The notes under the pieces are model-generated. The model was not told where the DNA came from, did not search any database, and saw only the letters and a program-made list of their open reading frames with translations. From Stagnimonas sp. (GTDB taxonomy: Bacteria > Pseudomonadota > Gammaproteobacteria > Nevskiales > Nevskiaceae), in assembly GCA_030696045.1 (NCBI GenBank), contig JAUYNO010000078.1, forward strand, positions 1 through 64,000: a stretch of 64,000 nt of DNA. The letters are read 5' to 3'. Positions 4,470-38,046 of this stretch are shown in pieces. How positions within the stretch are numbered: the stretch's first letter is position 1; the number at the start of each line of letters is the position of its first letter. A program made the position numbers and the translations under genes.

Positions 4470-4476
4470 TGACGCG

Positions 4477-8089: not shown

Positions 8090-8209
8090 CCCGCAAACAA
8101 CGGTCGAAGTCGCTAAGTGGCTTTATTTTCGACAGAAAGTCGTTAAACTACGCGACCTTTTTTGGGCCGGGAGTCATTTCCGTCCCGGTCTCACAGGCAG
8201 GAAAACCGC

Positions 8210-8473
8210 ATGGTCAAGATTCGTCTCGCTCGCAGCGGCGCCAAGAAGCGCCCCTACTACCACGTTGTCGCCACCGACAGCCGCAGCTCCCGCGATGGCA
8301 AGTTCATCGAGCGTCTGGGCTATTACAACCCGGGCGCCCAGGGCAAGGAAATCAAGCTGAAGCTGGACGTCGCCAAGATCGAAGGCTGGGCCAAGAACGG
8401 TGCCCAGATCTCCGAGCGCGTGGCCTTCCTGGTGAAGTCCGCGCCCAAGGCCGCGGAAGTCGCCGCGGCCTAA
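8210..8473 (+). CDS. rpsP: 30S ribosomal protein S16
   Basis: 87-aa small-subunit protein, first gene of the conserved rpsP-rimM-trmD-rplS operon. Start chosen at 8210 ([20 protein letters not shown]), the universal S16 N-terminus; GGCAGGAAAA lies just upstream. An upstream in-frame ATG at 8162 would add a non-conserved 16-residue extension and is rejected. The 120-base leader contains an AT-rich stretch (about 8120-8165) that may hold the promoter and a CCGGGA/TCCCGG inverted repeat (8167-8188). Ala/Lys-rich C-terminus is normal for high-GC species. Confidence 0.97.
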
Positions 8474-8479
8474 GACGCC

Positions 8480-9049
8480 ATGAGCGCCGAAGCGCCCCGC
8501 GCTGAAAAGCGGGTGACGCTGGGGCGTATCGCCGGCGTCTACGGCATCAAGGGCTGGGTGAAGCTGGTTTCATCCACCCGGCCGCTGGAAGCCATCCTGC
8601 GTTATCCCCGTTGGTGGATCAGCCGGCCGGGCTCGCAGGACGGCTATGAAGCACGCCAGCTCGAAGGGCGTATCCACGGAGCGGGGCTGGTCGCACAGAT
8701 CAGCAATCCGGACGGGACCCCGGTCGAGGACCGCGACAGCGCCGCCCGGCTGGTGGGGCTGGAAATCGCGGTTCCACGGTCGGCGCTGCCACCGGCGGGG
8801 CCGAACGAGGTTTATCTGATGGACCTGGTCGGCATGACCGTGAAGTCCATCGAGGGTGAGGGGCTCGGCACGGTCGAGTCGGTCACCAGCAACGGCGCCC
8901 AGGACGTACTGGTCCTGCGCGACGCGGCGGCGCTGGATGAAACGGGTGCGCCCCTGCGCAGGCTGATTCCGTTCGTGCGGGGCCCGATCATCGAATCGGT
9001 GAGCCTGGACAGGAACGAGATCGTCGCGCACTGGCAGCCCGATTGGTGA
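8480..9049 (+). CDS. rimM: Ribosome maturation factor RimM
   Basis: 189-aa 16S rRNA processing factor that binds S19 and helps mature the 30S head. N-terminal RimM domain: VTLGRIAGVYGIKGWVKL (family GxxxxxGxxGxxKV pattern). C-terminal PRC-barrel: VYLMDLVGMTVKSIEGEGLGTVESV and the ending IPFVRGPIIESVSLDRNEI. It starts six bases after rpsP and is followed eight bases later by trmD. The central region has a short SRPGSQDGYEAR-type insertion of the kind seen in several gammaproteobacteria; otherwise ordinary. Confidence 0.95.
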   Translation: MSAEAPRAEKRVTLGRIAGVYGIKGWVKLVSSTRPLEAILRYPRWWISRPGSQDGYEARQLEGRIHGAGLVAQISNPDGTPVEDRDSAARLVGLEIAVPRSALPPAGPNEVYLMDLVGMTVKSIEGEGLGTVESVTSNGAQDVLVLRDAAALDETGAPLRRLIPFVRGPIIESVSLDRNEIVAHWQPDW

Positions 9050-18263: not shown

Positions 18264-18353
18264 GGACAGGTGTCCGAGTGGTTTAAGGAGCAAGCCTGGA
18301 AAGTTTGTAAACGGGTAACCGTTTCGCGGGTTCGAATCCCGCCCTGTCCGCCA
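18264..18353 (+). tRNA. tRNA-Ser(GGA)
   Basis: 90-nt class II tRNA with encoded CCA. Acceptor stem GGACAGG/CCTGTCC; D arm TGTCCGAGTGG; anticodon stem CAAGC/GTTTG (one G-T pair) with loop CTGGAAA, anticodon GGA; a long variable arm; T arm GCGGG TTCGAAT CCCGC. Closely resembles E. coli tRNA-Ser(GGA). TAGAAT 14 bases upstream may be its -10. Its 3' end is the insertion site of the island. Confidence 0.97.
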
Positions 18354-18520: not shown

Positions 18521-19729
18521 ATGTCGCTCACTGATATCAAGGTCCGCAGCGCCAAAGCTCAAGCAAAACCCTACAAGCTTTCGGACGAAAAGGGGCTTTT
18601 CCTGCTGATTACGGCAGCCGGATCGAAGGGTTGGCGAGTCAAGTACCGCTGGCAGGGCAAGGAGCAGCTGCTCTCTTGTGGTGTCTACCCTGAGACCTCT
18701 TTGGCCGCCGCACGAAAGGCCAGGGATGATCTGCGCGAGCAACTGGCCGCTGGCATCAATCCATCTTTGAGTCGCAAGCAGGCCAAGTTGCAGGCCTCTC
18801 AAGCTGCGGACGATTCGTTTGAAGCTGTGGCTAAGGAGTGGATGCTCAAGCACTCCGAGGAATGGACGCCGATCTATGCCGAGCGTATGGCTGACCGTCT
18901 GGCGAAGGACATTTTCCCTTGGCTTGGCTTGCGACCTATAAGCCAGATCAAGGCAGTCGAGCTGCTGATGGTCCTTAAGCGCATTGAGTCGCGCGGCGCG
19001 CTGGTAATCGCGAAAAGGATGCGTCAGAGCTGTGGGGGCATCTTTCGCTATGCCGTCGCGACCGGTCGCGCAGAGCGGGACATCGCCGTCGATCTCAAGG
19101 ATGCTCTGAAGTCAGGCGCCGAGAAGCACCATGCTTCCATCATCGAGCCCAAGGCGGTAGGCGAGCTGCTGCGCGCAATTTCGGGCTATACAGGGGAGTT
19201 CATCACCAGCTGCGCCCTTCGTCTGGCGCCAATGGTATTCGTGCGACCGGGTGAGTTGCGGCACGCCGAGTGGAAAGAGATCAACCTTGATGCCGCCGAG
19301 TGGCGCCTGCCTGCCGAGAAGATGAAGGCGAGGGTGCCCCATGTGGTTCCGCTGAGCTTGCAGGCTGTGGCGATACTCCGCGAGCTGGAACCTTTGACGG
19401 GGCGTGGCAAATACGTGTTCCCAGGGGTGCGCAGCAGGCAGCGTCCGATGAGCGAGAACACGGTCTTGGCTGCGCTTCGCCGGATGGGCTACCCCAAAGA
19501 GCAGATGACCGGCCACGGCTTTCGCAGCATGGCCAGCACGCTCCTGAACGAACAGGGCTGGAACAAGGATGCCATCGAGCGCCAGCTGGCCCACGGCGAA
19601 CGCAACAAGGTTCGTGCCGCATACAACTACGCCGAACACCTACCGGAGCGTCGCCGCATGATGCAGGCGTGGGCGGACTACCTCGACAAGCTCCGCGAAA
19701 GCCGTGCCTCTGCGGTGCGTGCTGCATAG
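18521..19729 (+). CDS. P4-type tyrosine site-specific integrase
   Basis: 402-aa integrase with the N-terminal DUF4102 arm-binding domain (LTDIKVRSAKAQAKPYKLSDEKGLFLLI, about residues 3-85), a central SAM-like domain (about 100-190) and the catalytic domain. Catalytic residues seen: Arg in FVRPGELRHAEW, His/Arg in GHGFRSMASTLLNE, His in QLAHGERN and the nucleophile Tyr in AAYNYAEHL. Reads away from the tRNA gene, the usual P4-type layout. Full length, no frameshift, so possibly active. The AlpA-like gene at 22049-22270 is a candidate partner for excision control. Confidence 0.95.
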   Translation: MSLTDIKVRSAKAQAKPYKLSDEKGLFLLITAAGSKGWRVKYRWQGKEQLLSCGVYPETSLAAARKARDDLREQLAAGINPSLSRKQAKLQASQAADDSFEAVAKEWMLKHSEEWTPIYAERMADRLAKDIFPWLGLRPISQIKAVELLMVLKRIESRGALVIAKRMRQSCGGIFRYAVATGRAERDIAVDLKDALKSGAEKHHASIIEPKAVGELLRAISGYTGEFITSCALRLAPMVFVRPGELRHAEWKEINLDAAEWRLPAEKMKARVPHVVPLSLQAVAILRELEPLTGRGKYVFPGVRSRQRPMSENTVLAALRRMGYPKEQMTGHGFRSMASTLLNEQGWNKDAIERQLAHGERNKVRAAYNYAEHLPERRRMMQAWADYLDKLRESRASAVRAA

Positions 19730-20610: not shown

Positions 20611-21777
20611 TTATTTATTGCGTTTTTTACTTTTCTTAAATATCGCGATAGGATTATTAAGGTTATCCATTTTCTCTTGTAATTCACGATTAAATCCGCG
20701 CGGTCGTCCGAGTTTTGTTCCATTCGCCGCCCTGTTGAGCCCGTGAGTAAAGGTTTTCCACTTCGGAGGCCAACATAGTCGCACGTAGTAGTCGATTTTT
20801 ACCAAATACATGGCAACCCGCTCGAGGTTTTTTCGCATATCTTTGTCGGAGTGATGAATCATTCCGACGCCTAAAGTGCCTTTTTCCCTAAATTCATCCT
20901 TCTTCAAATTGCAATTATAAAATTTCCCATTTCCGTCGGTGACCTTCTCCCAGTACTTGCCGACCATGTCGCCAAGAGTAATATCTTCTCGGACCTTGCT
21001 GCCGTTAAAAAAAAGAAGCAGGTGGAAGTGGTACTTCTTCACGGGTCCGTATTCGAGTTTTCGAGCATAGCCGACCAGTGAAGGAAACTTTCTATCCAGA
21101 TGCTTCAGAAAGCGCGCGAAGCTGGCCTGGACATACTCATGATTTATGTCGCGGTTTCCGAGCGATTTTCGCAGCTCTTTTGAGAACCCCAAATCGAGCC
21201 GCACAACGAGGAGGCGCGCGTAATCCTCGAACAGGTTGTGAAGATAAGATTTTAGACTGGCCTCGTTTCCTGCTACGGCTCGCTTTTGGGCGGCGATGTT
21301 CTTTTTCAGGCTGCTAGCCTCGGCATCCTCCCTCAGCGTGGCCAAGAAGGCCTTAAGTTTATCGACACCGTCCGCCTTAAAATCAGATTCAGTCAAGCCA
21401 CTTTTCGCTACCGCTCCAAAAAAAAGCTCGATATAGGAGCCGAATTCGTGTTTCGGGTAAGAGCGTCGGATCAGTTCCCAGTCGGTCCTGAAGCAGCGAA
21501 TAAGTCGCCGACCAAGTTTGCCGATGCAGATGCTTGGAGGCAGCCGCGGCTTATTGGGCATCGATTCAAAAATCGAGTCGTTGCCCAGCAGGACTTGTTG
21601 AACACAGTCGTCGATTTCGATTATGAAATGCGGAATATCGACGTCGTGGTCTAATACGATAAATCCATCTTCGCGAATCATTAGGGCCATCTGCCATTGC
21701 TGTATCATCGATGGTTCTGTGTGACTGGCTTTTTGCCTATTTCCTCCCCAATCGCGATTATTCTGCTTTCTTTTCAT
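20611..21777 (-). CDS. Inovirus Gp2 / YagK-YfjJ family protein
   Basis: 388-aa protein of the inovirus-type Gp2 family, found in CP4-type cryptic elements and phage satellites. Three blocks resemble a rolling-circle Rep core: LVVRLDLGF (about 190-198), YHFHLLLFFNG with an HxH at 250-252, and MYLVKIDYYVRL with tyrosines. This fits an HUH-like replication role, although the family is not well characterised. Basic C-terminus (KKSKKRNK). AT-richer than the core, with many Lys/Asn/Phe. AlpA lies upstream on the same strand, the arrangement seen in CP4-like elements. Confidence 0.8.
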   Translation of the reverse strand: MKRKQNNRDWGGNRQKASHTEPSMIQQWQMALMIREDGFIVLDHDVDIPHFIIEIDDCVQQVLLGNDSIFESMPNKPRLPPSICIGKLGRRLIRCFRTDWELIRRSYPKHEFGSYIELFFGAVAKSGLTESDFKADGVDKLKAFLATLREDAEASSLKKNIAAQKRAVAGNEASLKSYLHNLFEDYARLLVVRLDLGFSKELRKSLGNRDINHEYVQASFARFLKHLDRKFPSLVGYARKLEYGPVKKYHFHLLLFFNGSKVREDITLGDMVGKYWEKVTDGNGKFYNCNLKKDEFREKGTLGVGMIHHSDKDMRKNLERVAMYLVKIDYYVRLCWPPKWKTFTHGLNRAANGTKLGRPRGFNRELQEKMDNLNNPIAIFKKSKKRNK

Positions 21778-22807: not shown

Positions 22808-23053
22808 TCACTGGCCGGCTGATGGGCAGCTACTCGGCCCCTCCGCAGTCGCCTGGATCGGCATGGGCGGGAGCAGAGCAGTGTCCGGCGCCTTGTGCTG
22901 CTCGGCGTCCCACTGGCGGGAGCGGCGGCGCCATGAGTAGATCGTGGCGCTGCTGATCTGGTACTCGCAGCACAGCTTCAATACGGGCCTGCCGATATCC
23001 AGCTGGTGGACGATGTGCCGCATCTGCTCGGTCGAAAACTTCGACTTCTTCAT
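22808..23053 (-). pseudogene. IS3-type transposase OrfA remnant
   Basis: 81 codons beginning MKKSKFSTEQMRHIVHQLDIGRPV, the typical OrfA helix-turn-helix start, through SSATIYSWRRRSRQWD. The usual downstream leucine-zipper region (ELRRLRQLEEENARLK type) is replaced by an unrelated Pro/Ala tail, and no OrfB with a DDE domain follows, so this is an immobile fragment. I see no clear terminal inverted repeats around it. The 280 bases to its right (23054-23333) hold no recognisable gene. Confidence 0.7.
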
Positions 23054-23333
23054 GGTGGATTCCTGATCGTGGATGGAGAGATCGGCGCGATCCGGGACGA
23101 TGGGTTCGCGCCACACGATGTGAATACTTCTGAAGTTTTCGCAGAGCCGAGTTGGATCACTCTGCGACGGATTCAGGAATCTTCGGTGTCCCCAAGTACC
23201 CACGACTCATCCGGCACTCACGCGGCATGCGTGAGCGCCAGTCAGCCAGGGTCTGGACGGTGCCGCCGCAGCAATCTAACCGTCGTCAACGGAGATCGCG
23301 TCGCCGATGACTACGTCGAAGTTGCTCATCGAT

Positions 23334-24647
23334 CTATTCCGAGCGCTGAGGAAGTTCAGCCTTTGGCTGACCCGAAGGTGGTTTTACGCAAAGCGTGCCG
23401 ATAGGGCGGTAAAACGAGCCCCCGGAGGGACTCATCGACAGCGTGTTGCCATATACAAGGCCGACGATATTGACACGGCCCTTCTCGTAGCTGTTGGTGC
23501 TACCCATGGGTCCGGCATCGTGCAAGTCGCTACTCCAGAACCAGCTGGTGGAAAGATCGAAGAGACTCGACACAATGCATACATCGCTGCCTCCACATTT
23601 CGCTCTACCCGCCCTTTCATTGATGAGACTTTTGAGAATCTTTTCATGCGGCAACTGCCAACCGCCCCCGTCAGCAGTCAAGGCCTTGCAGTAAGCCTTT
23701 GCCTCCTCCCAGCCAAGGTTTCCACCAGCGTCACTTTTCGTCCACTTCAACCGGGTTCTCGGTTGCAACAGAACACCCCCGCCCAGATCAGTGATGGCCC
23801 AGATCGGTGCTGAAGAAGACGCGGACGCTGGAAGTTGACTGTCGCTACCCGTAGACCGCACGCACAACTCACCGATCGGCTCGTCAACCGAGCCCGCCAT
23901 GCTGATCACTTTTATCGATCCGTCATCGAGACTCACGAGTTCGGCCGAAAAAGGCCCTGACTTGCTTGCGCTCCAGGCCAGCCGATTCGGCAGCACAAAC
24001 AGCGGCGAGACCTTGCAGGTGTATGCCACGCCACAGCGGATTCCTGAGATCTTCGGATCCACGATGCTCTGGAGTTCGGCTGTTTTTGGCAGGCGCCAAC
24101 GGCCGCCAGCGAAGTCAGACTTGCTGCAGAAAGCGCTTGCGGCGTCCCAACTCAAATTCTTGCCGTATTGGACGCGCATCCACTGCAGGCCGGATTTCTT
24201 CTGCAGCAGCACATTGCCGCCCTGGTCTGCCATCGCCGCCGGCGAATCGGGCGCCGGTGTCGAGGCACCCGCTCCCGCCTGGGGTGCGAGCGAGTCGCGG
24301 TATGACGACATCAGGTTCTCGCAGTAGCCGGCCTTCGCCCAGTCCTTGACCGTCGACAGGTTCGACGAGTCGCCATCGGGAAAGGCACGCAGGCTGGCGC
24401 CTTCAATCGCCTGCTGGGACAGTCGTAGACAGTGTCGCGGATCGCTGGCATCGCATTCTTGGCCGATCAGTTCAGAGAGACGCTTGGACGCTGCTCGATC
24501 CAGGAGCTTGGATTGTTCGCCGTAATTCATGTACCGGCTGACGATGACGCACTGCGCGGCATCGTCCTTCTCCGTCGAAAACAAACTGAATCCCGACAGC
24601 AAGCAAACTGCCCCCGCCGCCAATGCAAACCTCGCTAAAGACTTCAT
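23334..24647 (-). CDS. Secreted protein with two DUF1566 (Lcl) domains
   Basis: 437-aa exported protein. Signal peptide MKSLARFALAAGAVCLLSGFSLF, a Cys-containing N-terminal region (about 25-130), then two similar DUF1566/Lcl-type modules: GGNVLLQKKSGLQWMRVQ...GGRWRLPKTAELQSIVD (about 145-265) and GGGVLLQPRTRLKWTKSD...GGGWQLPHEKILKSLI (about 290-430), each ending in a GxLCV strand. These modules occur in surface and fimbrial-associated proteins; their ligand is generally unknown. ATG at 24647 chosen because it gives the signal peptide. Last gene of the operon led by the 46-aa protein; 109 bases follow the J-domain gene. Confidence 0.75.
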   Translation of the reverse strand: MKSLARFALAAGAVCLLSGFSLFSTEKDDAAQCVIVSRYMNYGEQSKLLDRAASKRLSELIGQECDASDPRHCLRLSQQAIEGASLRAFPDGDSSNLSTVKDWAKAGYCENLMSSYRDSLAPQAGAGASTPAPDSPAAMADQGGNVLLQKKSGLQWMRVQYGKNLSWDAASAFCSKSDFAGGRWRLPKTAELQSIVDPKISGIRCGVAYTCKVSPLFVLPNRLAWSASKSGPFSAELVSLDDGSIKVISMAGSVDEPIGELCVRSTGSDSQLPASASSSAPIWAITDLGGGVLLQPRTRLKWTKSDAGGNLGWEEAKAYCKALTADGGGWQLPHEKILKSLINERAGRAKCGGSDVCIVSSLFDLSTSWFWSSDLHDAGPMGSTNSYEKGRVNIVGLVYGNTLSMSPSGGSFYRPIGTLCVKPPSGQPKAELPQRSE

Positions 24648-24756
24648 GATTTCTCCCGTAGATTGTGTCGCGGGGCATCGGCGATGCACCCCGGCAAGCT
24701 CGAGTGTTGGGTGGTGGTTGTGGGTATTGCCGCGCCTACCCGATGTCAGTGCTTGA

Positions 24757-25848
24757 TCAGCGCGCCAGAATGTCGCGCGCGCGATTGATGTCCTGCGTTT
24801 TTTCCTTGACCAAGTTCTGCACGACCTCCGGCAGACTCGCGTACTTGTCCGGATGCAGCTCCGAGACCTTCTTGCGCCACGCCTGCTGGATCGCCTCCGG
24901 CGAGGCACCCATCTGGACGCCCAGTACCTGACAGGCCCAGCCGACATCGCCGCCGTTGCTTTGAGACCCTCGGCTTGAAGACTGCCCGGTAGCTTGTCCC
25001 TTCGCCTCCTGGATCATTTCGGGCGAGACCTGCATCCTGCGCCCCAGTGCATCCAGCTCGGACCCGATGACGCTCTCGGCACAACCCGACAGTCGCAGCA
25101 GCCCGGCGATGCCGGCCAAGATGCTGACCGACAACGCTTCGGCATCAAATCGCCGGAGGTACGCCGAGACACTCTCCTCGACGGTCGGACGCACAGTGAG
25201 CTTGAGCCGATCTCGTAGTGCCCCCGACTCGTCGCCGTCGAGTTCGAGGAACTCGCTGAAAACACTCTTGATCAGCCTGATCTTCTCGCCAGTCCAGGGC
25301 CCTGAACGAAGCGCATACAGCGCCAGCAAATCGACCGCCGGCGCCAACCAGCCGATGTTGCTCCACGGCTCAAAGCCGACTCGAACCTGGGCTGTCGCGA
25401 TGAGGTGCCCGACATACTCCTCATCCTTCAAGGCCACCACAACCACCTCTACGGTGCTCGCCTGGGTGCGGTTGATCGACAGGACATGCAGCGGGACGTC
25501 GAGCGACACGGTTCGGCTCGTGACCTCCCTGCCAAGGACGAAGTCCCCGTCATCGTCCCGGAAATGCTCGACGTGGCTCTTGAGGAAGGCCTCGCCCTGC
25601 TTCAGCCGCACCGCGATGACGTCGACGTTCACCCGCGCCGGTAGCGTGGCGGTCACCCGGAGCACGTTCCCGGACTGAGCCAGCGCGAGGGACCCGCTGC
25701 CGATGGCATTGGGCGCACTGCTGCCGTCCTCGCTGCCGTTGCCATCGGAGTCCTCGAAGCCGGCGCCGAGAAGAACCCCGATGCCGGCTCCGACGGGACC
25801 GCCCATGGCCGCCCCGATCACGCCACCAATGACTTTTCCCCAGGACAC
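24757..25848 (-). CDS. J-domain protein with N-terminal glycine zipper and TerB-like region
   Basis: 363-aa protein. Residues 1-30 are a glycine-zipper-like hydrophobic segment (GVIGAAMGGPVGAGIGVLLGAG) that could insert in a membrane. A beta-rich region follows (about 50-160), then a helical segment resembling TerB/DjlA (about 165-280; IRLIKSVFSEFLELDG, AILAGIAGLLRLSG). A C-terminal J domain carries HPD at 332-334 (WACQVLGVQMGASPEAIQQAWRKKVSELHPD). It should recruit DnaK at the membrane, in the manner of DjlA; partner proteins may be its operon neighbours. ATG at 25848, 12 bases after the 93-aa gene. Confidence 0.78.
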   Translation of the reverse strand: MSWGKVIGGVIGAAMGGPVGAGIGVLLGAGFEDSDGNGSEDGSSAPNAIGSGSLALAQSGNVLRVTATLPARVNVDVIAVRLKQGEAFLKSHVEHFRDDDGDFVLGREVTSRTVSLDVPLHVLSINRTQASTVEVVVVALKDEEYVGHLIATAQVRVGFEPWSNIGWLAPAVDLLALYALRSGPWTGEKIRLIKSVFSEFLELDGDESGALRDRLKLTVRPTVEESVSAYLRRFDAEALSVSILAGIAGLLRLSGCAESVIGSELDALGRRMQVSPEMIQEAKGQATGQSSSRGSQSNGGDVGWACQVLGVQMGASPEAIQQAWRKKVSELHPDKYASLPEVVQNLVKEKTQDINRARDILAR

Positions 25849-25860
25849 GGAATACCTCGA

Positions 25861-26142
25861 CTATTTCTTGTCGCGGGTGTTTGCCATCAGAAGGATGACG
25901 CTGATGAAAATCACGATGACGATCGCCCCGACGATCTCGCCGAAGACCGGAAAGATCTGGAACGGCCAGACCAGCGACTTGCCGAAGGCGAAGAAGAAGC
26001 CCCGGTAGCTCTCCGCGCCGAACAGCCAGTTGTAGAGGGTGAACAGGATCGCCACCAGCGCATACGCCCCTATGAACAGCTCCTTGGTGGTGAATTTGGT
26101 ATCGGCGTTTTCGGCAGGCTTGTTTTCTTCGTTCTCTGACAC
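25861..26142 (-). CDS. Small two-helix membrane protein
   Basis: 93-aa protein with a charged N-terminus (MSENEENKPAENADTK) and two transmembrane stretches (about 24-42: LFIGAYALVAILFTLYNWL, and about 66-86: EIVGAIVIVIFISVILLMA), with an aromatic loop between. Basic end NTRDKK. Unrecognised family. Lies 40 bases after the lipoprotein gene in the XRE-associated operon and is followed by the J-domain gene. Confidence 0.65.
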   Translation of the reverse strand: MSENEENKPAENADTKFTTKELFIGAYALVAILFTLYNWLFGAESYRGFFFAFGKSLVWPFQIFPVFGEIVGAIVIVIFISVILLMANTRDKK

Positions 26143-26182
26143 GGTGTATCTCCTTGGATGCTGAGTGAGGACGTGAAAGGAC

Positions 26183-27130
26183 TCATTCCCAGTCTTGGGT
26201 GAGTGCTTCGTAACAACGCTCGCTGGCTTCCAGATCCAGCGTCATGCAGTTCTGGAAATCGACGAGTTCCTGCTGGCAGGAGCCTTCCAGCCCTGGCTGC
26301 TGCAAGGCCTCCTCCCGGCTTACGCCGCCCAGTCGTCCGGCCGACTCGACGTAGTGCTCGATGCAGTCCGGGACATACGACTGAGGGTTCTCGACGATCT
26401 GTTTTTGGATCGCCTGCCAGCCCGGAGAAGGAAACGTGCTGGTGCTGGAAACGGTGTTCTCGGGAGATGTCGCTGCCGGTGACTCGCCATTCGGTTGCTC
26501 GAGAGGGGCGGGCTCGCCGCCTGCCGCGTCGCTCGACGGCGTGACGGGGGAGGTCACGCCCTCCGTCGCGAATCGGGCGGCAATTTCCGGGCTGGGCGTC
26601 CAGCCGGATTCCTTGAGCTGCGCCAGGAATTGCCTCTGGATCTCGTGCTTGATCGGGACCAGGTCCTGGGGCCCCACGAACGCCCGAACACCGCCGTCCA
26701 AGGGACGGCGTTCGCCCAGGAACCACCGGGAGAAAAATCCCGGACGCCGGCTTTGCAGATGCTCGATGGCCTGGTCACGAACGGAATTGACCGACTCCTC
26801 GAACATCATCCAGCCGGCCTCCCCGAACACCTCGATCATCTGTTCCTTCGTCCGGACCTCGTTGAACGGAATCCAGGTCTCGGCGTCGTTGGCCCTCAGC
26901 ACCGCGATGTTGAACTTGATGCTTCGGTTGGTGCAGCTGTTCGTGGATTGCCCGAAGCACTCCTGACGTAGCGTCTCCTGGAGGTAAATGAGCTTTCCTG
27001 CCTGGTAGGTGTCGCAGCTCGACAGCAGCAGCACCGCCGTCAGCAGAGGTACGACTCGGTTGATTCGTCGCTGGGGTGGGCGGGCCGACGGCAAGGCACT
27101 CGGCGCGCCTTCGGGAATCGGAATGCGCAT
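26183..27130 (-). CDS. Large hypothetical lipoprotein
   Basis: 315-aa predicted lipoprotein: a basic N-region (PPQRRINRVV), hydrophobic VPLLTAVLLLSSC with lipobox Cys near residue 39. The mature part has six further cysteines in pairs (ECFGQSTNSC; PDCIEHYV; GSCQQELVDFQNC; ERC), suggesting disulfides, and a Ser/Thr/Pro linker (about 195-240) dividing two helical regions. An ATG further in could trim the unusually long n-region, but the initial ATG at 27130 has no competitor with a better ribosome site. No family recognised. Operon place suggests an envelope complex with the neighbouring membrane proteins. Confidence 0.7.
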   Translation of the reverse strand: MRIPIPEGAPSALPSARPPQRRINRVVPLLTAVLLLSSCDTYQAGKLIYLQETLRQECFGQSTNSCTNRSIKFNIAVLRANDAETWIPFNEVRTKEQMIEVFGEAGWMMFEESVNSVRDQAIEHLQSRRPGFFSRWFLGERRPLDGGVRAFVGPQDLVPIKHEIQRQFLAQLKESGWTPSPEIAARFATEGVTSPVTPSSDAAGGEPAPLEQPNGESPAATSPENTVSSTSTFPSPGWQAIQKQIVENPQSYVPDCIEHYVESAGRLGGVSREEALQQPGLEGSCQQELVDFQNCMTLDLEASERCYEALTQDWE

Positions 27131-27175
27131 GGCGGGTTGGTTGTTCCTGGTTGGAAAAGCGAGTGATTGGAGGGC

Positions 27176-27472
27176 TTAGCCGACCTTTCGGACGGGTACG
27201 ACGTAGGTGATCGCGAGGGCTGCCAGGATCAGCGTCGTGGTCACAATGGCCACCGCGCTTCCGGCGCCCGGTCGCACGGAGCCGCTCAACCAGGCAAGGC
27301 CGATCAAAATCGGCATGCTGGCAATGGCAAGCAGCGAAACGACGACGGACCAGCTGGAGACTCGCCAGCGGTTCCCGCAGCGGACGCAGCGGAATTTGAA
27401 GATCGGTCCGAAGACCAGCTTTTTGACCAAGCTGATCCGGGCGATTTGGCAATGAGGGCAGCGCTGGGTCAT
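27176..27472 (-). CDS. Zinc-ribbon membrane protein (98 aa)
   Basis: 98-aa protein with an N-terminal zinc ribbon, CPHC (residues 5-8) and CVRC (about 29-32), followed by two transmembrane helices (about 42-64 and 71-92) and a short basic tail. Start codon overlaps the stop of the 46-aa gene by four bases (ATGA), indicating coupled translation. Zinc-ribbon/two-helix proteins of this kind are poorly characterised; a second Zn-ribbon membrane protein occurs at 30820-31227. Confidence 0.7.
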   Translation of the reverse strand: MTQRCPHCQIARISLVKKLVFGPIFKFRCVRCGNRWRVSSWSVVVSLLAIASMPILIGLAWLSGSVRPGAGSAVAIVTTTLILAALAITYVVPVRKVG

Positions 27473-27609
27473 GGAGCTTTGTCATCCCCGCCAGCGGCGC
27501 GCAGCAGAAGCCATCCGACAGCGATGCCAATGGCCCACAGCGGCCCCAAGACCCAGAAAAAGATGAACAGACCGATCAGGCCGACAAGTAGTTGTGCGAG
27601 TGATTGCAT
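27469..27609 (-). CDS. Very small membrane protein (46 aa), first gene of operon
   Basis: 46-aa protein, almost entirely hydrophobic: MQSLAQLLVGLIGLFIFFWVL then WAIGIAVGWLLLRAAGGDDKAP. Start chosen at 27609; longer in-frame extensions run through the divergent control region. Four-base overlap with the Zn-ribbon gene. It is the first gene transcribed from the spacer shared with the XRE regulator, so its leader is the likely control point of the operon. Confidence 0.6.
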   Translation of the reverse strand: MQSLAQLLVGLIGLFIFFWVLGPLWAIGIAVGWLLLRAAGGDDKAP

Positions 27610-27676
27610 ACGTTCCCTTTTCCCGACGCCCTCGTCCCAGCCGGCTTCAAACCGAGGAGATAGGTATTTATGCTGA

Positions 27677-27703
27677 CTGTGAAACCGACAGAAGTATCCT
27701 GTC
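27677..27703. promoter_or_regulatory. Probable operator of the XRE regulator
   Basis: Two overlapping palindromes in the 127-base spacer between the divergent operon and regulator: CTGT-N7-ACAG (27677-27691) and GACAGAAGTATCCTGTC (27687-27703), both built on the same CTGT/ACAG half site. Typical size and place for an XRE-family operator. Confidence 0.55.
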
Positions 27704-27736: not shown

Positions 27737-28105
27737 ATGGCAAAGCAATCTGCTGGGCGAAAATCGACCCCGTCACTACGGTCAAGAATCTCGGGCAGCC
27801 TCGTCACGAAGCGAGTGGCCCTGGGCTGGTCTCAAGAGCAGTTGGCGACTGCGGCTGGAATCAATGCAGAAACGATCTCCCGCTATGAAAGGGGTGTCTC
27901 GTTGCCTTCGATTGAGGCGCTTGAACGGCTAGCAAAGGCGCTGAGCGTTGATCTGTCGGAACTTGTATCTAGCCCTTCAAATCAGCCGCCGGAAGACGCG
28001 CAGCTGATCTCGGCTTGGCTAACCGGCTTGAATTCAGATGACCGCGCGTTCCTGACGACACTCATCGATAGCGCAGCTCGGCATTTGAAGCGTCGCAAGC
28101 CCTAG
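27737..28105 (+). CDS. XRE-family transcriptional regulator
   Basis: 122-aa DNA-binding protein. Helix-turn-helix at about residues 23-77: LVTKRVALGWSQEQLATAAGINAETISRYERGVSLPSIEALERLAKALSV, with the standard SQEQLA and TISRYERG recognition elements. The C-terminal 40 residues are helical with no sensor domain. Divergent from the small-membrane-protein/lipoprotein/J-domain operon, with palindromes between, so it most likely represses that operon and itself. ATG at 27737. Confidence 0.85.
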   Translation: MAKQSAGRKSTPSLRSRISGSLVTKRVALGWSQEQLATAAGINAETISRYERGVSLPSIEALERLAKALSVDLSELVSSPSNQPPEDAQLISAWLTGLNSDDRAFLTTLIDSAARHLKRRKP

Positions 28106-28116
28106 GGCCGTGCGGT

Positions 28117-28590
28117 CTACAACAGGCCACGCTCCGCGAACGAAAGCGGCGTCGCCATGCCGCCCACGATGAAGTGGTCCAGCACACGCACATCGACCGT
28201 CTGCAGCGCCTCCTTGAGTCGCCTTGTCAGCAGGACATCGGCGCCGCTATGAACCGTGCAACCCGTGGGGTGGTTGTGGGCAAAGATGACCGCGCAGGCG
28301 TTGTGCCTGATTGCAGCTCTCACGACCTCGCGTGGATACACCGCCGCCTCCGAGATGGTGCCTTGGGCGAGCTCCTCCCAGGCGATGAGCTGATGCTTGG
28401 TGTCGAGGAAAAGCGCGCAAAACACCTCGCGGTCCTTCACGGCCAGATTCATCTGGCACCAGCGGCGTACCAAGTGGGGTTCATTCAAGACCGGCCCGGC
28501 CGTGCGAAGCCTTTGCTCCAGAATCCGCAGGGCGCGATACACCGTGCGGTCCTCTCTGGTTTGCTGCTTCGCGCCATCAAGTTGAGTCAT
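28117..28590 (-). CDS. radC: RadC-like JAB-domain protein (mobile-element type)
   Basis: 157-aa protein with only the C-terminal JAB/MPN domain of RadC; the N-terminal HhH part of full RadC is replaced by a short helix. Metal-binding motif HNHPTG at 105-110 with Ser115 and Asp118, and an upstream Glu in WEELAQGTISEAAVYPRE. Such short RadC proteins are common on plasmids and integrative elements; their function is unsettled. ATG at 28590 overlaps the stop of the upstream gene by four bases. Last gene of a translationally coupled set. Confidence 0.85.
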   Translation of the reverse strand: MTQLDGAKQQTREDRTVYRALRILEQRLRTAGPVLNEPHLVRRWCQMNLAVKDREVFCALFLDTKHQLIAWEELAQGTISEAAVYPREVVRAAIRHNACAVIFAHNHPTGCTVHSGADVLLTRRLKEALQTVDVRVLDHFIVGGMATPLSFAERGLL

Positions 28591-28952
28591 GCAGCCTCCA
28601 ATGGGTTGTATGTGATAAGGGCTTGAGCGCACGCAACGGCTTCGCGTGCCTCGGTAGCGCCTGGAAAGTTCGGGTCTTCGTTGCCGGCGGCCTTGAACGC
28701 TTCAAGATCCTCGGCGCGGCTTTCGGCGTACGGCAGGACCTCGGCGAGCGCAGCGCGCAAGCGTTCGATTTCAGCGCTGCAGGCGGTCAGCGGGTGCTCA
28801 ATTCCTTCGAACTGAAACAACGCATCGCGATAGAGGTCGATGAGTTCTCGGTCTTCAGGATCGTCGGACGATTCGCGCGCCGTCACCGCCTCCAATGCGA
28901 GGCCGGCGACGATGCGGAATAGTTCAGCGGGTTCAAAGCGTTGACGGGACAT
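28587..28952 (-). CDS. Hypothetical protein (121 aa) in RadC cassette
   Basis: 121-aa acidic helical protein: AELFRIVAGLALEAVTARES, then RLRAALAEVLPYAESRAEDLEAFKAAG. No named domain. Start at 28952 (MSRQRFEPAELF) is supported by GGAG about ten bases upstream; it overlaps the end of the DUF6915 gene by 20 bases. The stop overlaps the RadC start. Occurs with plasmid-type DUF genes, so it is likely part of an element-maintenance or anti-defense set, by association only. Confidence 0.6.
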   Translation of the reverse strand: MSRQRFEPAELFRIVAGLALEAVTARESSDDPEDRELIDLYRDALFQFEGIEHPLTACSAEIERLRAALAEVLPYAESRAEDLEAFKAAGNEDPNFPGATEAREAVACAQALITYNPLEAA

Positions 28953-29853: not shown

Positions 29854-30810
29854 TTACGCCACCAACTTCAGGGCCTCGTCCCAGGCCCTCTGCTTGACCG
29901 CCGCCCCTTGCCCGAACCAGGCGGTATCCCGCCGGTGATCGTCGCTGCGGGAACGGCGGTGGTGGTCGACGTACTCGGTGACGCTGTTCAGGAGCCCCCA
30001 GGCGGTTCCGGTGCTCGATGCCAGTTGCGCACCGAGCCCCTTGCCGGCGTAGAGCGCATGGACTGCCTTGAGCGAGCGCTCACCGGCGGACTGGCCGTCT
30101 GTCGGAGCAGTGCTCGAGCCCGTCAGCACCCGGCGCAGCAAGGTCTCGGCCGAAGCGTCGGTGAGTTTTCGCTCCGCCAGTGCCTTCATCCGGGCCATGA
30201 AGCCGTCCCAGGACGAGATGGCGATACCCAGCTGCTGCTTCACCGCCTGCGCGTCGAACTTGCTCCGGTGTCCTACCTTGACTGCTCCGCCATCGTCCCG
30301 AAGCGCGATAGCCAGGGTGTTTTCGCAGACGACGCGGATCGACGTGAACTGCGCCGTGGTCGCCAGAGAGCCGTCACAGGCGGTGGCCAGTAGCAGATAG
30401 CCCCGGACCTCGTCACGGCCCTTCAGCAGGACGCTCTGACCGGTTCGGGCGAGCGCCCAGAGCTTGCGCCCCTCCTTGAGGACGCCGGCGGTCTCCAGCT
30501 GGAAGCCACCCGCCTCGGTCAGATCTCGGTAGAACTCCAGGATCTCGGCCGGCTGGACGACCTGGTATCGCTGGGAAACCACTGACAGGGGACGCTGGGT
30601 GTCGGAGCGGTACAACACCTTCTGCTCCGGAAAGGCATGAATCGACCCCAGGCCGTCGCCGGAAGCGACGAAGCGGACGTCGGCGGAGCGGATGGACCAG
30701 TCCATGCCGGCTTCGCGGGCCCAGGCTTCGAGAGACTGGTTGGGCGGCAGGACGGTTCCCAGAGAGTGGCGGGTAGCGGCACGTCGAGCGCCGATGGATG
30801 CGAGTGACAT
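29854..30810 (-). CDS. DUF932 (phage/plasmid-like) protein
   Basis: 318-aa protein of the DUF932 family carried by phages, plasmids and ICEs. Seen: VRFVASGDGLGSIHAFPEQKVLYRSDTQRPLSVVSQRYQVVQPAEILEFYRDL, the conserved front half, and SIRVVCENTLAIAL, the conserved core. The C-terminal part is helical (AVKQQLGIAISSWDGFMARMKAL) and ends VKQRAWDEALKLVA. Molecular role is not established. Nine bases after the Zn-ribbon gene on the same strand; the start ATG is at 30810. Confidence 0.85.
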   Translation of the reverse strand: MSLASIGARRAATRHSLGTVLPPNQSLEAWAREAGMDWSIRSADVRFVASGDGLGSIHAFPEQKVLYRSDTQRPLSVVSQRYQVVQPAEILEFYRDLTEAGGFQLETAGVLKEGRKLWALARTGQSVLLKGRDEVRGYLLLATACDGSLATTAQFTSIRVVCENTLAIALRDDGGAVKVGHRSKFDAQAVKQQLGIAISSWDGFMARMKALAERKLTDASAETLLRRVLTGSSTAPTDGQSAGERSLKAVHALYAGKGLGAQLASSTGTAWGLLNSVTEYVDHHRRSRSDDHRRDTAWFGQGAAVKQRAWDEALKLVA

Positions 30811-30819
30811 GGGTGCTCC

Positions 30820-31227
30820 TCAGTGCGATGGGTGGAAGGGGGAGTGCGCAGGCGAGGGTGGTCCGACGAACTCGTCGTCGGGATCCACGAAGCCTTGCGG
30901 GAACGGTCGGTCGCGGATCAGCTCAGGACCTCGGTCACCGAAGGTGTGACCGCATGCGACACAGCGATGGTTGTCGAGGACGTTGCTGTCGATGGCGTCA
31001 CCAATGCTGACGCCGGCGGCGGCCCCGCTGGCTCCGCCCAACAGCGCGCCGACGATGGCGCTGGCGATGCGGCCGACGAGGGTGCCGCTATTGCTGCTGT
31101 GAAGCGAGGACACGAAGCCAACGATGAAGCCAGCGATCGCGCCAACGGCACCGCAGAAGCGGCGGGCATGGTGCTGTGTCGTGACCCGGGTCGAGCCGCA
31201 CTTGGAACAGATCGGGATTGAAAACAT
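30820..31227 (-). CDS. Zinc-ribbon/glycine-zipper membrane protein
   Basis: 135-aa protein. CSKCG (8-12) and CVACG (about 97-101) make a split zinc ribbon whose halves flank a glycine-zipper hairpin (GAVGAIAGFIVGFVSS and GRIASAIVGALLGGASGAAAGVSIGDAI, about 34-85). The acidic tail ends in DPDDEFVGPPSPAHSPFHPSH. ATG at 31227 gives MFSIPICSKCG; the longer frame upstream has no Zn or hydrophobic logic. Similar glycine zippers occur at the start of the J-domain protein (24757-25848). No function known. Confidence 0.65.
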   Translation of the reverse strand: MFSIPICSKCGSTRVTTQHHARRFCGAVGAIAGFIVGFVSSLHSSNSGTLVGRIASAIVGALLGGASGAAAGVSIGDAIDSNVLDNHRCVACGHTFGDRGPELIRDRPFPQGFVDPDDEFVGPPSPAHSPFHPSH

Positions 31228-31331
31228 GGATCTCCTCTCCGACGATTTGGGACGAAAGGCATTCGTCCAAGCACGCGGGGATGCGGGCTCAGGAGAGGTA
31301 TATGTGGTCAAGAAGCGATTAGAAAGGCACG

Positions 31332-34008: not shown

Positions 34009-37000
34009 TCAGAATCCGGCTCCTGCGGATAGATCGAGTACCACGACATCGATCAACGAGCGCTTGGCTGGCGAAATCCTTTCCGCAAGCATTACTTTCA
34101 TCTGACTCGCGCTGGTTGGCGCCTCTAAACCGTCTGGATGAGCTTTCAGCCGACGCCCACTGTCAGACCTCCTATCGCCGAACCAAAGCACGCAATAGAT
34201 GCCCCGTTGGTTCGAGCGCCAATCGATCAGATACCTTGCATCCAGTTGAGTGGTCGCCGCGTCCCACACTTCGTTATGCCATTGACCTTTTACTTCCATG
34301 GGCATCTGCAACTCGCCCGCCTGAAATGCCAAGTCCACCCGCTTGTCCTTGGGCATGTCGGCTTCCGTGAGGCGATAGACGTCGTATCTAGCGAGCTCAG
34401 GTCCTAGCATTCCTGCTAGACGATCCCTGCAACGATTTTCGTCGCGCGGATTTCCGTCGTCTCCCCAGAAATCCCTGACCTGGTCAATGTCCTCACCTAG
34501 CAGCTTTGCTTGAACGACGCTCAGTTCCTCGAGAACCGTAGCCTTCAAGTCTTCGGCGTTAGATGGGCGAGCAGAGTCGAGCAGCGCACGCAGTTCGGCC
34601 GGCGCTAGCGGGTCGAAGGTCATCTCCGCGCGCTTCTGTCGTTGTTCGGCAGCCATATGGCGAATCAAGTCGGTATAGCTGTCGCGAGGCTGAGCAATCA
34701 ACCTTTCGAGCGCCACGCTGGCATCACTACTTGGGTCATTGGCTAGGCGACCAATTAACGACCGTAGAAAGTCCGTAGCGTCATAAGGGTTGCAATCTCC
34801 TGCGCCATGACCTCTGAGTTCCGCGTACGGCCATGGCACACGGAATTCCGAAATCACCCACTCGACCAAATCGCTCCGCGGCGTGCTCAACGCGCCACCG
34901 CGGCTCCAGCCGAGTCGCTCGCGAACGGCCCAAATGAAGTCCCGATCGCGGGTTCCGATGCTGGTCAGCCGATGAGACGCTTCGTCGAACCGAACCAGAA
35001 GATCAACTGCCTGCCAGAATCTTCCTTGCGCAACGTCGCGATACCCTGCACGGGCTTTTGAGTTCGAGAGCTCCGCTAAGTCCTCGATCCTCCCGTTGCG
35101 GGCAAGGCACTCCACGAGGTCCAGTTCCACAGACAAAGGCAATTCTGTATACGTCCGCAACCAAGTAGCGGCAAGCTTGCCTCCAGTGTGCTGCCAACGG
35201 CCTTCGCTTTTTAGCTTGTAAAGCCCCGACACATGTTCTTGCCGAGCTTCCAACTGCGGCTCAATCCAGATTCTTGCAAACGCCTCACGGTCGGACTCGC
35301 TACTGACCACAATTTGCTCCAAGGCGGTGCTCAAGTCGTCAAGACTGGCGTCTTTCACGTAGACGAGAGTTCCAACGCATATCCGAAGCGAATGAAGCAA
35401 TACTTCTTTCGGCAGATCGTCGAACGAGCGCCCTTGCCGCATGCGCTCCAGCAGAGCGGCAATCACCGCGTGACTTACATAGAAGGTCTTTCCTTCTGCA
35501 GCCGACTTGCCGATCTGCTCCAGGGTTGGCAGATCGGATCGATGCAGAACTGCCTCAAACCCTTGAAGCGCGTCTTCGGCCAAATCAGGGTTTAGCCATG
35601 TAGCGATCCTTTCGGGGCCTAGGTCTAACTTCGCCGATTGTGAGAAGTGCCCAAGATATGCCCGGGCAGGATCGGCAATGACCCGAGGCGCGCCTGCGCG
35701 TAACGCTTCACGATGGCGTTCATAACTGCGGCAGAGCTCGATTTTCTTTCTCTCCTGCTCGACTCGATACTTTTCGTTTCTCTGCTCGGATTCCACCTGC
35801 CAGCCTGGCTTTTTAGGGTGAAAGAGATCATCTAGAAACCTCGTCAACTCAGCATCCCCAGTCGCGAATGCCTTCGCGAGCTCGTACGTGCGCTCACTCA
35901 ATCCAGATGGAGTGCGAGCCCAGCGCATGAGGTCTTGCCAGTCCGTTCGTACCTCTTGGTTTGACCGATCCAACTCAGCGAATCTTTCGAGGTGCCATTC
36001 AGCATCATTCTGGGCTGCCGAAAATCCAACTTGGCGATTCCCCAACTCTCCCACGAGCTCGAACAGTCGCCGGCCAGCTCGCGCTTCGAGTAGTGCGTGG
36101 AGTTGGATTGCCCTGCGGACGTCCGCGTGTTCCGAAAAGAACTCGCGAATCTTTTCCCCCAGTGTGAATTCACCCCGAGGAACGAACGTCAGTGCTCGGA
36201 GCCACCGCCACACACTACCCGCGATACTCGTGCTGACCAGATTCTCGCGGACCGCTCGCAGGATCAGCCTTGGAACAAGTTCAGCAAGATCGTAGGAACA
36301 ATCAAAGTCGTGGTCGTCCAATAGGCAAAGGTAGTCGGCCATCCGATCTAACACAGGAACGACTCGATCCACGCTGAGCGAGTCTACAAGCCGACGATAG
36401 TCGTGAATCGTCGAGGATCGGTTGTCAGATTTCGGCAGGCAGCAGATTGTCAAGCCGATCTCGGCGAAAACAACGTCGACGAGAAGCTCGTCAGGTACAT
36501 CACAGCCACTCATTTCGATGACGTCTTTTGCCAGTCGAATGGAGTCTTCGCTTGCTTGGTCCCGCAATTTTGAAGAAACCGAAATCGCCCACGCACGATC
36601 ACGCAAAGGGTGCAACGCTTCTGCTGCGTCAAGTCGCTCGCTGTAAAACCGCTGATCGGACACCAGGATCTCTTCGAGCTCTGACGAGAGATCTCGTGCC
36701 AGCGACGTTCCCTTAAGACCTTCAATCAATAGCCACCGCAGATGCGAGTTGCTACTTGCTGACCCGACAACCGCACGGATCTTCTCGCGCAGGGCCGGTA
36801 GCATGATCCCCGCTGCGATTTGCGTATCCCATTCCTCTGCTCGAAAGTAGGGGTCGCTTTCAGCCAGCGAACGTAGCGATTCAAGCAGAACATCAGCTTG
36901 AGTGAGAGTGAGTGTTGAAGACTCTCCATAACGGAGCAGCCCGTAGGGGTCCGCTTGGGCGATGGCCTCGAACATCGTCGGGCTATGGAATGCCAGCCAG

Positions 37001-38046
37001 GCATGCACCCCGCGCAAGCTAGCGGGAACGGCGCCCGCACCATGAAACTGAGCCAGCAAGCGGCGCTGAATCTTTGGTGTGTCAGCACATCTCGTCAACC
37101 ATCGGGCAGCGAGAAACTCAGACACTACGCGGTGGATCGGCTTGAGGCGTTGAGTACCAACACTTACGAAAAGCTTTGAGCCCAAGATCGCGTTCGTGCC
37201 GCTTGCGTTTGGCAGGATGGAGATTTCCGAGTGCGGCAGATCGCCTAGCGATCTCGCAGTGGGCACAGCATCGCTGACCGCTTCCGCTCCAGAGAAGAGC
37301 AGTGCGGCGCAGATTGCACCGGCAGCGTCTAATCCACCCTCCTCAGTCAGCTGTGCGAGCCCCGATTGGCTTCTGTCTGGATCGTGCTCATACCAAACTA
37401 GCGCGGTAACTCGACCAAACAGCGCTCCTCTGGTTGCTGGGAGCTTGGCATCGCGCGAGGCAACCGTTCCCATCAAGCCAAGCGTGAGCGGGTTGGCGTA
37501 GATATCCTGTAGACCGTTGGAATCGAGATGCTCCAAAACATGCGCGGAATTGACGCTCGGGTACTGCAATTCAAGGAACTCTTTCGCTTCACTACGTACG
37601 AGCGGCTCCAGGCTGAATACTTTGGGTGCCTCACCATAGATCTGCCGCAAGCCTGACTCGTGGCGCGACTGCCACTCGCGACTCCGACAGGAAATAATGA
37701 AGTCAGGAGAACCCGCCGACTCAAGCTGCGCCAAGATGCGATCCATTGCATCACCATCGCGCTTCGACATGGCTTCATCGAGTGCATCGATGAGAAGGGG
37801 CTTTCCCGACGCGACAAACTGCCTAGGATCGTGCGAGTGCATGAAGCGAACTGCCGTGACGGTCGCAACTTGCAAACGCTTTCCGAGTTCCGACATCAAG
37901 CCCGATTTGCCCATTCCTGGCTCCCCCAGGACTACCGTGGCCTTAGGGGATGTCCCTAGCTGGCTCTCGCTCACCAAGCGGCTGGTGCCGTCATTGGCCT
38001 GGATACGAAGCTTGCGCGGAATTCTCACTGGCGATTCTTGGGTCAA
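34009..38046 (-). CDS. NACHT/STAND-like NTPase with C-terminal PD-(D/E)XK nuclease motif
   Basis: 1345-aa protein. The N-terminal P-loop domain has Walker A GEPGMGKS (41-48), Walker B LLIDALDE (84-91), FIISCRSREW (sensor-like, about 116-125) and NPLTLGLMG, a NACHT/STAND arrangement with almost nothing before the P-loop. About 1000 residues of helical repeats follow. The C-terminus carries a restriction-endonuclease-like motif: Asp1238 (RVDLAF), then MEVKGQW with Glu1251 and Lys1253. STAND NTPases use repeats to sense phage proteins and trigger an effector; here sensing repeats lie between switch and nuclease. ATG at 38046. Frame intact. Confidence 0.75.
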   Translation of the reverse strand: MTQESPVRIPRKLRIQANDGTSRLVSESQLGTSPKATVVLGEPGMGKSGLMSELGKRLQVATVTAVRFMHSHDPRQFVASGKPLLIDALDEAMSKRDGDAMDRILAQLESAGSPDFIISCRSREWQSRHESGLRQIYGEAPKVFSLEPLVRSEAKEFLELQYPSVNSAHVLEHLDSNGLQDIYANPLTLGLMGTVASRDAKLPATRGALFGRVTALVWYEHDPDRSQSGLAQLTEEGGLDAAGAICAALLFSGAEAVSDAVPTARSLGDLPHSEISILPNASGTNAILGSKLFVSVGTQRLKPIHRVVSEFLAARWLTRCADTPKIQRRLLAQFHGAGAVPASLRGVHAWLAFHSPTMFEAIAQADPYGLLRYGESSTLTLTQADVLLESLRSLAESDPYFRAEEWDTQIAAGIMLPALREKIRAVVGSASSNSHLRWLLIEGLKGTSLARDLSSELEEILVSDQRFYSERLDAAEALHPLRDRAWAISVSSKLRDQASEDSIRLAKDVIEMSGCDVPDELLVDVVFAEIGLTICCLPKSDNRSSTIHDYRRLVDSLSVDRVVPVLDRMADYLCLLDDHDFDCSYDLAELVPRLILRAVRENLVSTSIAGSVWRWLRALTFVPRGEFTLGEKIREFFSEHADVRRAIQLHALLEARAGRRLFELVGELGNRQVGFSAAQNDAEWHLERFAELDRSNQEVRTDWQDLMRWARTPSGLSERTYELAKAFATGDAELTRFLDDLFHPKKPGWQVESEQRNEKYRVEQERKKIELCRSYERHREALRAGAPRVIADPARAYLGHFSQSAKLDLGPERIATWLNPDLAEDALQGFEAVLHRSDLPTLEQIGKSAAEGKTFYVSHAVIAALLERMRQGRSFDDLPKEVLLHSLRICVGTLVYVKDASLDDLSTALEQIVVSSESDREAFARIWIEPQLEARQEHVSGLYKLKSEGRWQHTGGKLAATWLRTYTELPLSVELDLVECLARNGRIEDLAELSNSKARAGYRDVAQGRFWQAVDLLVRFDEASHRLTSIGTRDRDFIWAVRERLGWSRGGALSTPRSDLVEWVISEFRVPWPYAELRGHGAGDCNPYDATDFLRSLIGRLANDPSSDASVALERLIAQPRDSYTDLIRHMAAEQRQKRAEMTFDPLAPAELRALLDSARPSNAEDLKATVLEELSVVQAKLLGEDIDQVRDFWGDDGNPRDENRCRDRLAGMLGPELARYDVYRLTEADMPKDKRVDLAFQAGELQMPMEVKGQWHNEVWDAATTQLDARYLIDWRSNQRGIYCVLWFGDRRSDSGRRLKAHPDGLEAPTSASQMKVMLAERISPAKRSLIDVVVLDLSAGAGF

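Follow-up and report, generated by a model that had tools for sequence, protein, structure and literature searches.

A six-gene operon in the first 64,000 nucleotides of a Stagnimonas sp. contig (JAUYNO010000078.1, assembly GCA_030696045.1; hereafter the window) has relatives on mobile elements of other bacteria, where a divergent gene for an XRE-family regulator, a small membrane protein that we call the g4 family and one or more Cys-rich lipoproteins form a module, accompanied by a J-domain protein in Xanthomonas relatives, in Variovorax and in the window. We read the operon as a divergent member of this envelope module and as an XRE-repressed cassette that enlists DnaK and serves exclusion at the inner membrane or defence against phage, a reading that we favour at a little less than an even chance. 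The module had been taken for an undescribed one on the letters of the DNA alone; the open-licence literature yielded no description of it either, which is weak evidence of novelty.

The operon in the window

The open reading frames (ORFs) bore out six co-directional genes, all on the minus strand, and a divergent regulator gene. The operon opens with g1 (27469-27609), which encodes a 46-aa hydrophobic membrane peptide and overlaps by 4 bp with g2 (27176-27472), whose 98-aa product has two hydrophobic segments and two CxxC pairs (C5/C8 and C29/C32). The product of g3 (26183-27130) is a predicted 315-aa lipoprotein with the lipobox LSSC-D, hence Asp at +2, and six more Cys residues beyond the lipobox Cys. 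The module's marker, g4 (25861-26142), encodes a 93-aa two-helix membrane protein, likewise with hydrophobic segments and carrying the motif G[RK]x[LI][VI]WP...FPxxG; a typical member of its family has about 72 aa. The last two genes are g5 (24757-25848), for a 363-aa J-domain protein, and g6 (23334-24647, with its ATG at 24647), for a predicted exported protein of 437 aa. Spacings from g1 to g6 are -4, 45, 40, 12 and 109 bp. The divergent gene (27737-28105, plus strand) encodes the 122-aa XRE-family regulator, which scored 61.8 bits against the Pfam HTH_3 cut-off of 23 and is RstR-like, but under the cut-off of the RstR model.

As the sequence-only reading had proposed, g5 contains a J domain (Pfam DnaJ, 30.6 bits against a cut-off of 27.8; HPD motif intact, at residue 332) and g6 a pair of Lcl_C/DUF1566 stretches (69.8 against 34.9 bits). 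Its zinc ribbon in g2 fared less well: the Cys pairs and hydrophobic segments are there, but g2 fell under the cut-off of every zinc-ribbon family listed (Zn_ribbon_8, E 0.0018; TIGR04104, E 3.7e-4). No match to g2 was found in the plasmid collection. A scan found neither a sigma-70-type promoter nor a terminator. The source genome (G000, a draft of 104 contigs) has a single match each for g4 and g5. A lone ORF with an IS-type transposase helix-turn-helix (22808-23203, minus strand) lies at the operon's downstream end.

The g4 family marks a recurrent module

We collected loci solely by g4 profiles or by tblastn with g4; J-domain, lipoprotein and XRE genes were not selected for. A tblastn search of plasmids led to a Variovorax plasmid on which the g4 homolog has genes for a J-domain protein, DUF932 and a divergently encoded HTH protein around it, and to small plasmids of Enterobacteriaceae and Acinetobacter. 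Profiles added loci in Xanthomonas, Stenotrophomonas, Rhodanobacter, Silanimonas, Variovorax, Acinetobacter and further genomes, along with two contigs of the viral collection, in which a larger g4 profile found no additional locus. The set comprises 27 loci, 26 of them outside the window. Weak matches in frames of about 700 aa (G123, G409) were dropped as chance, and a 32-position match in G712 (L088), which adjoins an XRE gene, a family-A lipoprotein and DUF932, was left out of the 27 for want of a g4 frame in the ORF set. The module is rare in the family of G455 (Xanthomonas), where 8 of 297 genomes carry it (two of these being seeds and one a fragment), and it occurs in 3 of 299 genomes of the family of G454 (one a seed). 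Within the window's own order, g4 was found in one of 85 genomes, namely the window's own.

The homologs do not scatter. A lipoprotein of family A or B, both of them families of small Cys-lipoproteins, lies within 450 bp of g4 in 25 of the 26 outside loci (25 of 27 overall); the window has g3 instead, and in L060 a different predicted lipoprotein lies upstream. A J-domain gene on the same strand lies within 500 bp in 13 of 26 (14 of 27 with the window), and a divergent XRE gene within 2.1 kb in 15 of 26 (16 of 27). All 13 outside loci with a J gene also have XRE and DUF932 genes, the latter as a fragment only in L058. Some of these same loci supplied sequences for the hidden Markov models (HMMs) of J, the two lipoprotein families, XRE and DUF932, and those members match by construction. 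Because J matches elsewhere occur at only about 0.76 per Mb (55 in 56.9 Mb of 13 genomes, with 12 module ones removed and genome sizes rounded), the association of J with g4 is not scatter; at this density the chance of a J gene per locus is 0.0014, and three independent hits would give P of about 6e-6, with independence failing for close relatives.

What recurs is gene content. The sequence-only reading had pictured one envelope set with a DnaK recruiter under XRE control; the set is real in that sense, but it is not a fixed six-gene machine, and its J protein comes in two builds. Its commonest core is g4 plus a lipoprotein, to which g1, g2 and g6 are accessory. The J gene takes three positions: before g4 in the Xanthomonas relatives, after the lipoprotein in the Variovorax loci and L059, and, as a DjlA-like gene, after g4 in the window. 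Among the loci covered by the Pfam scan, an Lcl_C protein directly follows the g4 homolog in one, L050. On inspection by eye, the first gene of the operon also encodes a small hydrophobic peptide in L040 (78 aa) and L089 (42 aa), and in L090 a 49-aa hydrophobic peptide with E 0.018 to g1 follows g4. On one 4.1-kb plasmid (L043), annotated for rep and mob alone, an unannotated g4 homolog and a small Cys-lipoprotein lie at 185-400 and 429-683.

Palindromes lie between the XRE gene and the operon

CTGT/ACAG palindromes had been proposed to control the operon. Their presence stood up, and a controlling role would follow if the XRE protein represses the operon through them. The candidate operator, CTGT-N7-ACAG-N7-CTGT, lies at 27677-27702 between the XRE gene and g1, its only occurrence in the 64 kb. 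When the 127-bp intergenic region was shuffled base by base 2000 times, 25 shuffles produced a triple like it (any 4-base half-site, spacers of 3-10). Several relatives have clear palindromes in the corresponding place: L058 and L084 share the perfect palindrome CTCTATCTTAAAGATAGAG, of which L051, L053, L086 and L087 have close variants, the Variovorax loci have another kind (ACTAAGGATTCCTTAGT in L040, CTAAGGAATCCTTAG in L055), and L057 has a GC-rich one. Half-sites of 4-5 bases only were found in L049, L059, L083, L085, L089 and L090.

J-domain proteins of two builds

The HPD motif is present in all 14 module J proteins. In the 13 from outside the window, whose frames measure 222-610 aa, it falls among the first 150 residues; the J domain was checked by Pfam in seven and by a genome search over its cut-off in 11, these sets overlapping, and was assigned in L059 from blastp and a custom HMM. 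Pfam found no family over cut-off in the part beyond the J domain of six outside proteins. In all six tested, this part matched the PADLOC model of BnzA, from the Bunzi system, with E values of 6.8e-11 to 6.2e-33; the common segment spans only residues about 15-91 of 544, so the relatives do not have full BnzA either. The match is uncommon elsewhere, with one in 143 genomes of the class (at residues 300-424, outside the module-type segment) and none in 14 control genomes. In a set of 13 genomes bearing a g4 locus, BnzA was matched by the 11 whose locus holds a BnzA-type J gene and not by the other two, G000 and G451; the g4 locus of G451 has no J gene. Thirteen of the 14 BnzA matches in those 11 genomes are the module's own J frame, and the remaining one (G450 C212) lies beside a further J-domain match. 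For a structure model of the J protein of L053, a smaller Rhodanobacter-type module of J, g4 and a lipoprotein (pLDDT 86), the matches listed by Foldseek/VIA-align were to J domains, with none for the second domain.

The window's g5 resembles DjlA at both ends. Residues 2-38, a glycine-rich membrane anchor, and residues 298-361, the C-terminal J domain, matched a 26-sequence DjlA profile (hhalign E 1e-12 and 3.7e-16). Unlike DjlA, g5 is longer, has an unmatched middle, scores 67.7 bits against an NCBIfam equivalog cut-off of 162, and is encoded in an operon on a mobile element. Used as a query, it found no relatives in the plasmids, genome_contigs or viral_contigs collections; against 369 genomes of the class it matched 66 including its own, the 65 outside matches being confined to the DjlA-like N-terminus (residues 1-80). 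Its own structure model (pLDDT 41) was unusable. A TerB-like domain had been suggested for g5 and was not borne out: residues 160-300 gave E 0.089 against the TerB region of DjlA and 0.4 against plasmid TerB, from a single-sequence query that leaves room for a very divergent TerB. A TerD-like middle gave E 0.52, no match. In G000, three frames have J-domain matches at E <= 1e-4, one of them g5 and the others of 395 and 315 aa; a separate DjlA is not evident. Neither g5 nor g3 is orthologous to the J proteins and lipoproteins of the other loci.

The DjlA-like ends of g5, together with the Asp at +2 of g3, a residue that acts as an inner-membrane retention signal of lipoproteins, bring in the main rival to our reading. 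Here the cassette would modulate envelope stress: the lipoprotein and the DjlA-like co-chaperone would trigger host pathways of the Cpx or Rcs type and alter capsule or membrane quality control for the element, with any effect on phage being indirect. A passage of PMC11709261 describes E. coli DjlA as a membrane-anchored co-chaperone of DnaK whose overproduction activates Rcs in a manner requiring both the J domain and membrane location. A part of PMC6538781 names YafY, an inner-membrane lipoprotein from the element CP4-6, as one of two among 90 lipoproteins that activate Cpx when overproduced. In the other 13 loci, however, the J domain comes early in the J protein, which in the cases tested also carries the BnzA-type domain, unlike DjlA; and neither YafY nor YfjS of CP4-57 matches g3 or frames of the module loci. 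We hold this explanation to be rather unlikely.

Lipoproteins of the module and of Pseudomonas plasmids

Residues 25-190 of g3 matched lipoproteins in 128 plasmid records, nearly all from Pseudomonas, at about 41% identity in the best matches; the large plasmids among them we take to be of the IncP-2 type. No match to g3 was found in phage records. The tail ...DDPxCCPS, or a close form, ends five aligned plasmid lipoproteins and several of those beside J and g4, and this loosely ties g3 to the lipoproteins of the module, although g3 itself lacks the tail of the aligned five. The plasmid lipoproteins have no J gene annotated beside them (five regions).

In two of six plasmid regions the g3-type lipoprotein directly follows ter genes (in three it does not, and one is unannotated). 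This placement, the common tail and a g2 that may bind metal would suit a general stress or fitness cassette tied to Ter functions, chaperoning secreted or metal-stressed envelope proteins and playing no part in conflict. We consider such a role improbable: g5 has no TerB or TerD similarity, and the module travels on mobile elements at the low frequencies given above.

The lipoproteins also bear on the possibility of entry or surface exclusion against conjugation, in which the two-helix protein and the lipoprotein would act like TraS/TraT or TrbK and bar related elements. The core pair of g4 and a lipoprotein is found on plasmids of 4.1-4.5 kb that also have rep and mob genes, the L056 lipoprotein has a weak match to TrbK (E 0.017), and predicted lipoproteins differ between elements in the slot described below, as exclusion specificity would predict. 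Yet the TrbK match lies under its cut-off (15.1 against 23 bits) and consists partly of signal peptide, the scanned part of the island's ORFs contains no conjugation family, and the J protein and BnzA domain would be left unexplained. We therefore regard this as distinctly unlikely. The L085 lipoprotein has a domain of LprI, a lysozyme inhibitor, just under its cut-off (21.5 against 22 bits); adjoining it, at 8000-8527, is an ArdA-like antirestriction protein that is also just under cut-off (26.5 against 27 bits).

The operon occupies a variable slot on a CP4-57-like element

The operon sits on an integrative element like CP4-57 of E. coli. The island starts at a tRNA-Ser gene (18264-18353), adjoined by a tyrosine integrase gene (18521-19729, plus strand) whose product aligns with IntA of CP4-57 at 36% identity over 388 aa (E 5e-78). 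A YagK/YfjJ-type gene (20611-21777, minus; PF11726 over cut-off) also belongs to the element, and two landmarks flank the operon: a RadC-like gene (28117-28632, minus; RadC over cut-off, 50% identical to LfgB of CP4-57) and a DUF932 gene (29854-30810, minus; over cut-off). An AlpA candidate is weak (17.3 against 21 bits; blastp E 0.003 to K-12 AlpA). Integrase, AlpA, YfjJ, DUF932 and RadC are all gene types of CP4-57, as compared with K-12. A convincing repeat of the tRNA end, which would mark the far att site, was not found on the island. The island also encodes DUF6915 and DUF6878 proteins and, at 34009-38046 (minus), a 1345-aa NACHT protein that NCBIfam places in the EruA antiphage family (1297 bits against a cut-off of 1000); among open-licence papers, none was found that treats EruA, NACHT and phage together. 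Adjoining the DUF932 gene, a 163-aa protein (30820-31311, minus) has Cys pairs on either side of a glycine-zipper-like stretch, and proteins like it lie near DUF932 in L049, L050 and L055 too.

DUF932 marks a slot whose contents vary. In the family of G455, 23 genomes have a DUF932 match; five carry g4, G514 (a partial match) was left out, and the other 17 were inspected. Eight of these 17 loci have no XRE cassette, and YqaJ comes next after DUF932, at most with RadC or one small ORF in between. The remaining nine have a different cassette with an XRE gene, after which, judged by eye, seven have a predicted lipoprotein of differing sequence, whereas none was seen in L128 and L132. The slot of L127 retains a 63-aa remnant of a J gene. 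In E. coli, the place after DUF932 (YfjQ/YafZ) holds yfjR-ypjK-yfjS-yfjT in CP4-57 and yafY and ykfB in CP4-6. The slot thus appears to serve for regulated envelope cassettes, of which the operon would be one.

Like the module, CP4-57 has in this place a regulator together with a small hydrophobic protein and an inner-membrane lipoprotein, and YfjT besides; a YfjT homolog lies in the slot of L089 (E 4e-5), and a relative of CP4-57, L060, carries a g4 homolog (its IntA is 85% identical over 203 aa and its YfjQ 81% identical). The two differ in sequence: YpjK shows no match to g4 and was rejected as its homolog, nor does YfjS match g3 or YfjR the XRE protein; no J gene is annotated in the slot of either CP4-57 or CP4-6. 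CP4-57 also carries abpA, annotated as an anti-bacteriophage protein, and rnlAB, which has a phage role. In L060, the protein upstream of the g4 homolog (3858-4529) matches AdfA, an anti-DarT factor, just under the cut-off (24.5 against 27 bits).

A possible exclusion cassette

If the operon is an exclusion cassette, the XRE protein would hold it low through the intergenic palindrome; on relief, the g4-type protein and the lipoprotein would form a unit at the inner membrane and periplasm that may hinder a competing phage or element from entering. The J protein would bring host DnaK to this unit, either for its assembly or to act on its target. We favour exclusion because an envelope cassette is here combined with an XRE gene, the elements bear antiphage genes, the relatives carry the rare Bunzi domain, and the lipoproteins of the slot differ.

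Several observations weigh against this reading. The window's g5 has no BnzA match, and G000 has none at E <= 1e-5, so the anti-phage hint from the relatives transfers less well to the window. PADLOC models gave a single match to the six operon proteins at E <= 0.1, TniQ at 0.025 for g5, and none at E <= 10 for five of five g4-family proteins (with HMMER filters on, and with the presence of a BnzB model in PADLOC unconfirmed). The J gene is absent from 13 of the 26 outside loci, including small plasmids of Enterobacteriaceae and Acinetobacter that carry g4 and a lipoprotein, and the 26 are not independent, the g4 proteins of L042 and L054 being identical and those of L043 and L044 nearly so. 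Finally, the passage on YafY in PMC6538781 reports it for Cpx activation on overproduction and not for exclusion.

A bolder version, which we think possible and lean towards doubting, is that the module represents a new class of conflict system. An element-borne J protein would recruit DnaK to the inner membrane, together with a two-helix protein and a swappable lipoprotein sensor, and stop incoming phage or plasmid DNA; exchange of the lipoprotein would shift specificity, while membrane protein and regulator type stayed constant. If exclusion holds, the warfare that mobile elements wage at the envelope would include chaperone recruitment, and a domain listed for Bunzi would gain a wider setting, fused to a J domain and joined by a membrane partner and a lipoprotein. 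The poorly understood envelope genes ypjK, yfjS, yfjT, yafY and ykfB of CP4-57 and CP4-6 would then have a handle, as one filling of the slot. The g4 family, the lipoproteins and the slot offer simple markers for finding more members.

Among known systems, the exclusion proteins of T4 and the Ltp lipoprotein are like the proposed cassette by analogy, in that a small membrane protein, a periplasmic protein or a lipoprotein blocks entry. T4 Imm is an exclusion protein of this entry-blocking kind. Precedents for periplasmic and for lipoprotein-based exclusion are described for T4 Spackle in a part of PMC7677548 and for Ltp in a part of PMC3952083. Bunzi, which a table in the review PMC10952713 groups with Shango under the TerB domain, is like the module in that the relatives' J proteins contain the short BnzA segment. 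It is unlike the module in that the latter adds a J domain and lipoproteins, that g5 lacks the segment, and that g4-family proteins gave no match to BnzB, subject to the reservation on the BnzB model given above.

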